This document shows, in pieces, positions 1 to 50,773 of a stretch of DNA of 55,681 nucleotides (position 1 is the first letter of the stretch; each line of letters starts with the position of its first letter). Location of the stretch: the NCBI RefSeq assembly GCF_001019615.1, contig NZ_JNBQ01000025.1, forward strand, positions 1 to 55,681, in the 5' to 3' direction. This stretch comes from Cellulosimicrobium funkei (GTDB lineage: Bacteria > Actinomycetota > Actinomycetes > Actinomycetales > Cellulomonadaceae). Both the position numbers and the translations under genes were made by a program. The notes under the pieces are model-generated. The model did not search any database, was not told the origin of the DNA, and saw only the letters and a program-made list of their open reading frames with translations.

Positions 1-3000
1 GCGAGCCGGACGCGCATCACGCGCCGCGCGGACTCGAGCTCGCGGAGCCAGTCGGCTGCGGCGTCGCGCGCGTCCTCGCGCGTGCGGGCCACGACCTCGG
101 CCTCCGTGAGGGGCCCCAGCCGGCGCAGCACGTCCCACACGTCCTCGGCGTGCCGGGCCTGCCGCTCGGGCGCCAGCGCGCCGAGCTCGGCCTCGGTCCG
201 CTCGATCTGCGCGGGGTCGAGCAGGTCGGCGAGCTGTGCCGCGACGCCGTCGCCGCCCAGCAGCTCGGCGAGCAGGGTCGGGTCGAGCGACAGCGCCGCT
301 GCCCGCCGCTCCGCGAGCGGGGCGTCGCCGTCGTAGAGGAACTGCGCCGTGTACCCGAAGAGGAGCGACTGCGCGAACGGCGACGGCGTCGGGGTCGTGA
401 CCTCGACGAGGCGCACGCGCCCCGCCGCGAGGTCACGCATGAGGTCGGTGAGCGCCGCGACGTCGAAGTCGTCCTGGAGGCACTCGCGTGCGGCCTCGAG
501 GACGATGGGGAACTCCGGGTACTCCGACGCCACCGACAGGAGCTGCGCCGAGCGCTGGCGCTGCTGCCACAGCGGCTGGCGCCGGTCCGGACGCCGCCGG
601 GGCAGCAGGAGCGCGCGGGCGGCGGCCTCGCGGAACCGTGACGCGAACATGACCGACCCGCCGAGCTCGTCGCGCACCGCGTCGAGCACGTCGTCCGGGT
701 CGAGCAGCAGGTCCTCGACGCCGACGACGGGTGCGTCCCCGCCGAGACCGCCCGAGCCGTCGGTCGCTCCCTCGAGCCACGAGTCCCCGGTGTCCGGGAG
801 CCGCAGGACGATGCCGTCGTCGGCGTGCATCGCGGCGGCGTCGACCCCGTAGCGCTCGCGCAGGCGCGCGGCGAGCACGAGCGCCCACGGCGCGTGCACC
901 TTCGCGCCGTACGGCGAGTGCACGACGACGCGCCAGTCGCCGAGCTCGTCGCGGAACCGCTCGACGACGACCGTCCGGTCGTCGGGCACGCGCCCGGTCG
1001 CGTCGCGCTGCTCACGGAGGTACGCGAGGAGGTTGTCGCTCGCCCACGCGTCGAGCCCGGCGGCGCGCAGCCGGTCGGCCGCGGCGTCGTGGTCGTCGGC
1101 CGCGAGCGCGTCGGTCTCGCGCACCCAGGCGCCGAGCGCCCGGCCGAGCTCGGCGGGCCGCCCGGGGGAGTCGCCCTTCCAGAAGGGCAGGCGCCCGGGG
1201 ATGCCCGGCGCGGGCGTGACCAGCACGCGGTCCGGCGTGATGTCCTCGATGCGCCACGTGCTCGACCCGAGCGTGAACGTGTCGCCGACGCGCGACTCGT
1301 AGACCATCTCCTCGTCGAGCTCGCCGACGCGCTTGCCGCCGCGCGGGGCACGCCCGCCCGCCGTGTCCGGGTCGCCCGCCACACCTCCTGTCGCGGCGTC
1401 CGTGGCGAGGAAGACGCCGTACATCCCGCGGTCGGGGATGGTCCCGCCGCTCGTCGCCGCGAGCCGCAGCGCGCCCGGTCGCCCCGTGAGCCGGCCCGAC
1501 GCACGGTCCCACACGATGCGCGCGCGCAGCTCGCCGAAGTCCTCGCTCGGGTACCGCCCCGCGAGCATGTCGAGCACCGCGTGCAGCGAGGCGTCGCCCA
1601 GGTGGGCGTACGGCGCGCTGCGCCGCACCACGGTGGCGAGCTCCGCGACCGTCCACTCGTCGACCGCGACCATGGCCACGACCTGCTGCGCGAGCACGTC
1701 GAGCGGGTTCGCGAGCACGTGGAGCTCCTCGATGCCGCCGGTGCGCATGCGCTCGGCGACGACCGCGGAGGGCACGAGGTCGCCCCGGTGCGTGGGGAAC
1801 ACGACGCCGTGCGACACCGCGCCCACCTGGTGCCCCGCGCGCCCGATGCGCTGCAGCCCGGAGGCGACCGACGGCGGGGCGCCGACCTGCACGACGAGGT
1901 CGACCGCGCCCATGTCGATGCCGAGCTCGAGGCTCGACGTCGCGACGACCGCGGGCAGCCGCCCGTCCTTGAGCTCGGTCTCGGTCCGCGTGCGTTCCGC
2001 ACGGCTCATCGAGCCGTGGTGGGCGCGCGCGATGACGGGCTCGACGCCGGAGCTCGCGCCCGACTGCGCCTGCACCTGCGCCGCGGTGATCGTGCCCGGG
2101 TCGAGCACGTCCTCGCCCTGACGTTCCGCCCACACCTCGTTCATGCGTGCCGTGAGGCGCTCGGCGCCGCGGCGGGAGTTCGTGAACACGAGAGTCGAGC
2201 GGTGGTCGGCGACGAGGTCGACGACGCGCTCCTCGACGTGCGGCCACACCGACGGGCGCTGCGGCCGGACGTCCGGCGCCCCGGTCGGGCGGGACGTCGC
2301 AGGCCCCGAGAGGTCCCGCTCGCCCGGCGGCAGGGGTGGCAGCGCGCTCGCGCTCGTCGCCCCGGACGTCGCGCCACGGGCCCCGCCTGCTTCCTTGCCC
2401 GGGCGCGCGCCGGCGTCGGGCACCAGCGCGGCCGTGCCGAGGTCCGCGAGGTCGGGGACGGGCACCACGACGTCGACCTCGATGCGCTTGGCCGCGGGGG
2501 GCTGCACGACGACGACCTCGCGGCCCGCCTCCGCCTCCGGGCGGTGGCCGCCGAGGAACGTCGCCACGGCCTCGACGGGCCGGACGGTCGCCGAGAGCCC
2601 GATGCGCTGCGCGGGCGGGCGGTCCTGCGCCTCGAGGAAGGCGTCGAGACGTTCGAGCGACACCGCGAGGTGCGCGCCGCGCTTGGTCCCCGCCACGGCG
2701 TGGATCTCGTCGACGATCACGGTCTCGACGCCCGCGAGCCCCGCGCGCGCCTGCGAGGTCAGCACGAGGAACAGCGACTCGGGCGTGGTGATGAGGATGT
2801 CCGGCGGGTGCGTCGCGAGGCGGCGGCGCTCGCTCGTGGGCGTGTCGCCCGTGCGGGTGCCGACGACGACGTCCGGCACCTCGAGCCCGAGCCGCACCGC
2901 CGCCTGGCGGATGCCCGCGAGCGGGGAGCGGAGGTTGCGCTCGACGTCCGCGGCGAGCGCCTTGAGCGGCGAGACGTACACGACGCGGCAGCGCTGCTCG

Positions 3001-3221
3001 CGCACGACCTCGCCGGCTGCGGGCGCGCTCATGATCCGGTCGAGCGACCACAGGAACGCCGCGAGCGTCTTGCCCGACCCGGTCGGAGCGACGACGAGCG
3101 CGTGCCGGTCGCTCGACACCGCGTCCCACGCGCCGGCCTGCGCCGCGGTCGGGGCGTCGAACGCGCCCGAGAACCAGGCGCGCGTGGGCGCGGCGAAGCG
3201 CGCGAGCGGGTCCGTGGTCAC
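1..3221 (-). CDS. lhr: Lhr-type DEAD/DEAH-box ATP-dependent helicase (3' end outside window)
   Basis: Large helicase of the Lhr family (superfamily 2), an ATP-driven 3'-5' nucleic-acid translocase linked to DNA repair. About 1073 N-terminal residues are visible; the family usually has about 1500, so the C-terminus lies left of the window. Seen: Walker A APTGSGKT at residues 45-52, DEIH box at 171-174, motif III GLSAT near 209, and helicase domain 2 with VFTNSRRGAERL and QRIGRAGHQ. A low-complexity Gly/Ala/Pro insert separates the two RecA-like lobes near residues 255-310. The start is GTG at 3221, because GAGAAT (3233-3228) lies 6 nt upstream as a leaderless-type -10; no Shine-Dalgarno is visible. 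It is divergent from the DUF3046 gene and shares its inverted-repeat intergenic region. Family assignment is firm; the physiological role is inferred. Confidence 0.9.
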   Translation of the reverse strand, partial: MTTDPLARFAAPTRAWFSGAFDAPTAAQAGAWDAVSSDRHALVVAPTGSGKTLAAFLWSLDRIMSAPAAGEVVREQRCRVVYVSPLKALAADVERNLRSPLAGIRQAAVRLGLEVPDVVVGTRTGDTPTSERRRLATHPPDILITTPESLFLVLTSQARAGLAGVETVIVDEIHAVAGTKRGAHLAVSLERLDAFLEAQDRPPAQRIGLSATVRPVEAVATFLGGHRPEAEAGREVVVVQPPAAKRIEVDVVVPVPDLADLGTAALVPDAGARPGKEAGGARGATSGATSASALPPLPPGERDLSGPATSRPTGAPDVRPQRPSVWPHVEERVVDLVADHRSTLVFTNSRRGAERLTARMNEVWAERQGEDVLDPGTITAAQVQAQSGASSGVEPVIARAHHGSMSRAERTRTETELKDGRLPAVVATSSLELGIDMGAVDLVVQVGAPPSVASGLQRIGRAGHQVGAVSHGVVFPTHRGDLVPSAVVAERMRTGGIEELHVLANPLDVLAQQVVAMVAVDEWTVAELATVVRRSAPYAHLGDASLHAVLDMLAGRYPSEDFGELRARIVWDRASGRLTGRPGALRLAATSGGTIPDRGMYGVFLATDAATGGVAGDPDTAGGRAPRGGKRVGELDEEMVYESRVGDTFTLGSSTWRIEDITPDRVLVTPAPGIPGRLPFWKGDSPGRPAELGRALGAWVRETDALAADDHDAAADRLRAAGLDAWASDNLLAYLREQRDATGRVPDDRTVVVERFRDELGDWRVVVHSPYGAKVHAPWALVLAARLRERYGVDAAAMHADDGIVLRLPDTGDSWLEGATDGSGGLGGDAPVVGVEDLLLDPDDVLDAVRDELGGSVMFASRFREAAARALLLPRRRPDRRQPLWQQRQRSAQLLSVASEYPEFPIVLEAARECLQDDFDVAALTDLMRDLAAGRVRLVEVTTPTPSPFAQSLLFGYTAQFLYDGDAPLAERRAAALSLDPTLLAELLGGDGVAAQLADLLDPAQIERTEAELGALAPERQARHAEDVWDVLRRLGPLTEAEVVARTREDARDAAADWLRELESARRVMRVRL

Positions 3222-3227
3222 TGGCCC

Positions 3228-3233
3228 ATTCTC
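3228..3233 (-). promoter_or_regulatory. Putative leaderless -10 element of lhr
   Basis: On the minus strand this reads GAGAAT, with 6 nt to the GTG start at 3221. It fits the extended pattern seen before many genes in this window. No convincing -35 hexamer is visible. Confidence 0.4.
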
Positions 3234-3298
3234 GCCGCGACCACCCACACGCGCCGCGCGACGGGAGACCGGCGGCCCGCCCGCGCGAGGGAAGTCCT

Positions 3299-3368
3299 CC
3301 GAGCGCTGCGTCGGCGTGCGAGCGATGCGTCCCGGGACGCATCGCTCGCGCACGGACGCAGCGCTCGG
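3299..3368. repeat. 70-bp near-perfect inverted repeat made of four 12-mer units
   Basis: Four copies of GAGCGMTGCGTC: direct at 3301-3312 and 3320-3331, inverted at 3336-3347 and 3355-3366, symmetric about 3333/3334. Outward pairing from the centre gives 35-bp arms with only three non-Watson-Crick positions, one of them G-T. It lies between divergent lhr (start 3221) and the DUF3046 gene (start 3411), so it is not a convergent terminator. The layout (two tandem sites facing two tandem sites) suggests a multi-dimer operator, or a cruciform-forming element. I do not recognise the motif. Confidence 0.85.
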
Positions 3369-3410
3369 CCGTGCGGACCGAGAGGGCGCGCGGCGTGGGA
3401 GGCTGGTCCC

Positions 3411-3644
3411 GTGCGCTACCGCGAGTTCTCCGAGCTGGTCGACGAGGTGTTCGGCGCGTCCCTGGGACGCGCCTACGTCCGCGAGCAGGTGCTGTCCGCG
3501 CTCGGCGACCGGACGGCCGCCCAGGCGCTCGAGGACGGCGTCGAGCCGCGCGTCGTCTGGCACGCCCTGTGCGACGCGCTCGACGTGCCCGACGCGCGAC
3601 GCTGGGGCCACGACGACCACCGCCAGGCCCCGCCGCGCCGCTGA
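3411..3644 (+). CDS. DUF3046 family protein
   Basis: Small protein of 77 residues, function unknown. It matches the actinobacterial DUF3046 family in size and pattern: N-terminal RYREFSELVDEVFG, then a helix with ARVREQ-like residues (GRAYVREQVLSALGDR), then a PRxVWHALCDALDVP segment and a short basic tail. DUF3046 genes typically lie just upstream of recA in actinobacteria, as here. The GTG start is chosen because it begins the conserved RYREFSE segment; a weak GAGGCT -10 (3399-3404) lies 6 nt upstream, so the message may be leaderless. There is no signal peptide or membrane segment. Confidence 0.8.
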   Translation: MRYREFSELVDEVFGASLGRAYVREQVLSALGDRTAAQALEDGVEPRVVWHALCDALDVPDARRWGHDDHRQAPPRR

Positions 3645-50603: not shown

Positions 50604-50773
50604 GGCACGACCCACGGTTCCCGCACGGTGAGGCCTCCTCCCGCCCGGTCTGACGCACTTCCCCGGCGCCAGAAAGGACGCGGAGGGAGACCTGACCGTA
50701 CGGGGACCGGCCGGGCGAGGCGCACCACCGGACGGTACGGACCGGCCACGACCAGCACGGAGAGGAGACGGAC

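Follow-up and report, generated by a model that had tools for sequence, protein, structure and literature searches.

What is a 70-bp palindrome built from four copies of one short unit doing between lhr and a DUF3046 gene? The locus lies in a 55,681-nucleotide stretch of Cellulosimicrobium funkei DNA (contig NZ_JNBQ01000025.1 of assembly GCF_001019615.1), here called the window. A preliminary description of the window had noticed an inverted array of four 12-mers, two facing two. Arrays of this geometry were found dispersed through the genus Cellulosimicrobium (Promicromonosporaceae, Micrococcales), and in several genomes two of them frame a gene for a protein with predicted AbiEi-like and Vsr-like parts. 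Repeat family and nuclease gene together look like a type of small actinobacterial mobile or selfish DNA that is as yet undescribed. The 70-mer itself is probably a solo, non-autonomous dispersed repeat that is recognised and spread by such an AbiEi-Vsr-like nuclease.

The array and its family in Cellulosimicrobium

An inverted-repeat scan returned two arms, 3299-3333 and 3334-3368, of 35 nt each, 91% complementary and with zero gap. Units and arms were thus located as originally described, and the unit was refined from 12 to 13 bp, CGAGCGMTGCGTC, plus a lone G four bases on; its four copies lie within 3300-3367. The geometry was examined in 54 distinct 68-bp arrays, a set that includes orthologous sites. 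The single G four bases past the 13-bp unit is present in both outer arms of 54/54 arrays. Because this G is invariant on top of the 13-bp unit, the real motif is about 17 bp long, CGAGYGMTGCGTCNNNG, and is set at a 19-bp step around a 4-bp centre. Units begin with CGAG in most copies, and the palindrome is the whole array. With its conserved units and mostly variable spacer bases (the lone G apart), the array has the look of a row of sites for a protein, and the partner protein described below has an AbiEi-type DNA-binding part.

The predicted RNA fold of 3280-3390 is strong (-82.6 kcal/mol, z -6.8; 0/200 shuffles equally low). Arm pairing beyond unit conservation amounts to 84.9% of cells against 83.1% in shuffled arms (26 arrays; 6/500 shuffles reach the observed value). 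The palindrome is mostly a by-product of one unit set in opposite orientations. The cruciform element proposed earlier is possible but is not the chief signal, the pairing excess being small.

Two statements made about the site at the outset hold: the array is not between convergent genes, as lhr and DUF3046 are divergent, and it is not a simple terminator, there being no terminator-like site in 3150-3450 and no T-run. The suggestion of an operator for a cooperatively binding regulator stands in so far as the array resembles a set of protein-binding sites, but not as an operator of lhr or DUF3046. The lhr-DUF3046 interval was compared among 17 genus genomes (cited by handle, G000 being the window genome), and site states were read by eye on an alignment in which the G001 site was not located. 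G000, G002 and G004 have the array, the last with a damaged fourth unit, and in G006 and G007 it is decayed. It is absent from the 11 others. Conserved bases near both start codons are identical with or without the array. Given these bases and the patchy presence, the window copy is a passenger, easily gained or lost, and no conserved lhr/DUF3046 operator.

Exact copies of the 12-mer number 27 in the 4.66-Mb genome, compared with 12 for the reversed control pattern. By position, 24/27 copies cluster into 10 arrays of like geometry, and those in the window are the four of the array. Once degenerate copies were included, 15 arrays were scored in this genome. A genus search at an E-value of 0.001 gave array matches in 12/17 genomes, with G011 and G015 marginal. 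In all, 76 array records in 23 site groups were gathered across the genus, a count in which one place appears twice (L082 4140 = L089 952) and orthologous sites appear repeatedly. 55/76 records face the 3' end of a gene at a median distance of 11 bp, and 48/76 lie no more than 30 bp past a stop codon. By codon-usage gene calls, 32/76 lie between convergent genes and 12/76 between genes called divergent, while 7/76 fall 'inside' genes and 3/76 at contig edges; these calls misplaced the window copy 'inside' a false antisense frame. Where examined, the genes beside the arrays are unrelated to each other.

Some arrays have grown to 5-8 units at 19-bp steps, with plus units left and minus units right of the centre. 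Four arrays of 6-8 units (L087 2996-3139, L084 3002-3126, L119 2855-2979 and L122 2967-3072) have expanded mostly on one arm, and their near-identical extra units are tandem growth within the element. At the L109 site, 6-9 bases from the start of unit 1 remain in the 'empty' alleles of G000 and G005 (L309, L310); arrays can thus vanish by deletions starting within the first unit.

A putative nuclease gene framed by cognate arrays

The candidate partner was found at the junction between the Hsp15 and LPMO genes (Pfam S4 and LPMO_10). In G002, G004, G005 and G013 a gene for a protein of about 313 amino acids lies here, framed by two arrays, and the same is seen in G003 (locus L122). The layout is an array, about 105-190 bp, the gene, about 0-40 bp and the second array. 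G011 has a 59%-identical version of the gene, with a shifted unit. All that the window genome keeps, between two arrays, is a relic of 32 codons that matches the C-terminus at 81% identity. In G014 the two arrays are 26 bp apart, and in G006, G007, G008, G010, G015 and G016 the junction is short and lacks the gene. The junction survey gave no state for G001, G009 and G012, nor for G003, which is known from L122 instead. In L342 (G015) and L343 (G016), the first 100 bp after Hsp15 hold one short inverted pair of the CGAGCGATGCAC...GTGCATCGCTCG type in place of the gene and arrays found elsewhere; it is either a relic or a terminator.

Some homologue of the protein, more distant paralogues included, is encoded in all 17 genomes. 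Median array scores were 71.6 with a close orthologue present (45 arrays) and 75.0 after its recent loss (20 arrays), both higher than the 59.0 found where it is absent (9 arrays; p 9e-4 and 3e-4 respectively); the contrast was computed with and without four weak hand-added arrays. A paralogue of the window genome, G000:C11:80224-81472 (L174), is an open frame with its own array pair of another unit type (GAGGTAGARC). This second type has matches in 16/17 genus genomes, with 26 match rows in both orientations in G000.

In the predicted structure, the partner of about 310 amino acids has an N-terminal winged helix and AbiEi-like domain and a C-terminal Vsr/EDxHD-like nuclease, that is, an AbiEi fold plus a PD-(D/E)XK-type part with acidic residues. 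This acidic core is invariant among loci fetched by profile, from which its conservation was taken; loci fetched by motif pattern are biased, because the patterns include these residues. Pfam returned AbiEi_1/4, DUF559, MTES_1575 and one weak unrelated match on nine family members, with no match for 1/9, and the AbiEi models score below cut-off. None of the nine has a Transposase_17 (Y1) domain. A profile search of solved-structure sequences gave nothing at an E-value of 1, and PHROGs gave weak matches, all of unknown function. Among 12 neighbours sampled around eight loci there was no AbiEii (DUF1814) toxin gene and no other toxin or defence partner; one of these neighbours had no Pfam match.

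Homologues were identified in 142/150 genomes of the family (E-value 0.001) and in 76/296 genomes drawn from the phylum (E-value 1e-10), and a pattern-limited scan yielded at least 519 encoding stretches. Flanks were compared at 80 named loci, 78 of them usable, from Cellulosimicrobium, Cellulomonas, Isoptericola, Promicromonospora, Sanguibacter, Oerskovia, Arthrobacter and others. The repeat common to the upstream and downstream flanks had a median score of 23.5 at the 78 loci vs 11 in 360 control pairs, whose 95th percentile was 14. With sharing taken as a score of at least 15, repeats were shared at 61/78 loci and in 9/360 controls, and 51/78 loci combined a shared repeat with a clear inverted repeat. 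In distant genomes the same score was reached at 18/28 usable loci vs 1/56 controls. An enzyme gene between two copies of a repeat is thus usual, not universal. From one protein clade to another the unit sequence changes, and arrays are the more alike the closer their proteins are in identity. Homologues elsewhere in Micrococcales and in the phylum frequently carry their own arrays, with another unit on the same plan.

Mobility and competing explanations

The strongest indication that the array itself was recently duplicated comes from Isoptericola chiayiensis. Its gene-framing array type occurs at 12 places, and none was found in I. sediminis, the one congener searched. The seven of 12 copies compared are 83-100% identical over 69 bp and their flanks 23-44%, that is, unrelated; the two on either side of the gene are identical to each other. 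No target-site duplication was established among these copies.

We infer unit binding, cleavage, mobilisation and the copying route as follows. The 17-bp units are most likely bound by the AbiEi-like N-terminal part, each unit taking one protein, perhaps cooperatively. The array would then assemble a multimer whose nuclease domains are placed around the 4-bp centre, where the Vsr/EDxHD-like domain most likely cuts or nicks. Subsequent repair or transfer of single-stranded DNA would copy array DNA to new, mostly intergenic sites, with landing or survival favoured just 3' of genes. In the window genome the gene of this unit type has decayed, and the window array would be a leftover that persists for now and will decay as well. 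With somewhat less confidence, we favour extending this scheme to Actinomycetota as a whole: a phylum-wide set of undescribed minimal mobile elements with multi-unit arrays, each family mobilised by its own AbiEi-Vsr fusion from an array-framed gene, and an independent PD-(D/E)XK analogue of REP/RAYT.

Several observations weigh against this scheme. 27/78 named loci lack the combination of shared flank repeat and clear inverted repeat, 17/78 lack flank sharing itself, as do 10/28 distant loci, and common descent of the locus could partly account for array sharing among close homologues. In Cellulosimicrobium genomes with an orthologue, the array-flanked gene sits at one locus, Hsp15-LPMO. Neither a target-site duplication nor a fixed insertion motif was established at eight Cellulosimicrobium sites, with a hint of a repeated GCTACC at 1/8. 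The presence-absence pattern at orthologous array sites mixes gain and loss; a number of the 'empty' ones are deletion scars, which makes loss part of the pattern. A gene scored as absent lacks the close orthologue only, since all 17 genomes hold some homologue. Matches to the second unit type are numerous in G006 and G007, yet their listed paralogues resemble another clade; these arrays may outlive their gene or be served by a relative. Finally, Foldseek found no PDB match at an E-value of 0.001 or below, the best being Rv2827c at 1.4e-3.

The sites could instead be an operator family, in which an AbiEi-type regulator represses its own gene and dispersed targets and the nuclease domain is secondary. 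The units resemble protein sites, each array pair has one member about 105-190 bp upstream of the gene, the window copy precedes both of its neighbouring genes, and AbiEi and Rv2827c bind inverted repeats in twos or fours at the promoters of their own genes (PMC7319586). We consider such an operator family unlikely, as the bulk of records just past stop codons adjoin genes that are unrelated where examined, the other member of each pair follows the gene on its 3' side, arrays come and go at orthologous sites, and the acidic nuclease core is invariant. The position near 3' ends, with 32/76 records between convergent genes, together with the strong predicted hairpin and the slight pairing excess, would suit bidirectional terminators or RNA-stability hairpins that are alike through copying and in which the nuclease has no continuing role; REPs show a like position bias (PMC3733652). 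This explanation is a poor one for the window copy, which lacks a T-run and lies between divergent genes. It also leaves the type-specific array pair around nuclease genes unexplained; unit, step and lone G are conserved far beyond pairing, spacers pair poorly, and arrays of 5-8 units break hairpin symmetry. We give it little credence.

A role in defence or self-recognition, with arrays marking the chromosome and the nuclease acting on DNA that lacks or carries the sites, is suggested by the presence of AbiEi domains in defence systems (PADLOC), by the Vsr/DUF559-type nuclease and by paralogues with different arrays in one genome. It is hardly probable, given that the sampled neighbours include no toxin or defence partner, that arrays outlast the gene in genomes from which it was lost and that about 15 sites a genome are few for self-marking. 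Short inverted repeats are common in GC-rich DNA (16 pairs within 281 bases), but a chance or mutational palindrome with no system behind it can practically be dismissed: one geometry recurs at 23 site groups in the genus and around homologous genes across the phylum. A solo repeat served by an array-framed nuclease is thus the reading we prefer.

Known systems and site coordinates

The system resembles REP/RAYT in its logic, but by enzyme and by repeat it stands outside that family. In both, short palindromes are scattered, for the most part close to the 3' ends of genes, two copies of the repeat flank the gene for the cognate enzyme, and repeat and enzyme diverge together; the layout is that of the REPtron, an enzyme gene between two copies of its cognate repeat (PMC2817692, PMC3116915, PMC3733652). 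Unlike REP/RAYT, the enzyme here is AbiEi-like plus Vsr-like rather than Y1 (Transposase_17), the 13-bp units are set at a 19-bp step in ++-- order around a 4-bp centre, there is no GTAG-type head on a 20-40 bp single-hairpin unit (units here mostly start CGAG), and the window genome has about 15 arrays where REPs usually exceed 100. AbiEi antitoxins and Rv2827c share the N-terminal fold, and AbiEi binds two inverted repeats and Rv2827c four (PMC7319586). The partner here differs in being fused to a Vsr-like nuclease domain, with arrays on both sides of its gene and genome-wide and no AbiEii among the sampled neighbours. EDxHD homing endonucleases (I-Bth0305I), Vsr and DUF559/MTES_1575 resemble the partner in predicted C-terminal catalytic fold and acidic residues, whereas the gene here stands alone between host genes and goes with a dispersed palindromic array. 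Neither an intron nor an intein was noticed at the partner gene, and no search was aimed at either. No paper linking AbiEi/DUF559-type nucleases to palindromic arrays was found among the open-access matches listed; subscription journals lay outside the search.

Although bacteria commonly carry dispersed palindromes, an enzyme is known for few of them. Here a family of nucleases recognised so far just as AbiEi-like or DUF559-like gains a sequence-specific partner, in many cases legible in the genome beside the gene. DNA targets of many unexplained proteins become testable, and natural protein-site pairs become available for decoding specificity. If the reading is true, a new enzyme class is added to short mobile DNA.

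Coordinates of the array, its parts and the neighbouring genes in the window
Feature	Position	Strand	Remarks
Solo four-unit palindromic array	3300..3367	.	++-- order; unit starts 0, 19, 36, 55
Unit 1, CGAGCGCTGCGTC	3300..3312	+	conserved G of 17-bp motif at 3316
Unit 2, CGAGCGATGCGTC	3319..3331	+	array alignment
4-bp centre CCGG	3332..3335	.	most frequent centre, 14/54 arrays
Unit 3, inverted	3336..3348	-	array alignment
Unit 4, inverted	3355..3367	-	array alignment
lhr, neighbour outside element, runs off window	3..3221	-	Pfam WH_Lhr, DEAD_assoc, DEAD; start codon 3221 by eye
DUF3046 gene, neighbour outside element	3411..3644	+	Pfam PF11248, E 2.7e-27; GTG start 3411

At the gathering cut-off, Rfam matched nothing at the array, and its sole match across the window was the mraW RNA motif (RF01746, 53.7 bits) at 50615-50713 on the plus strand.
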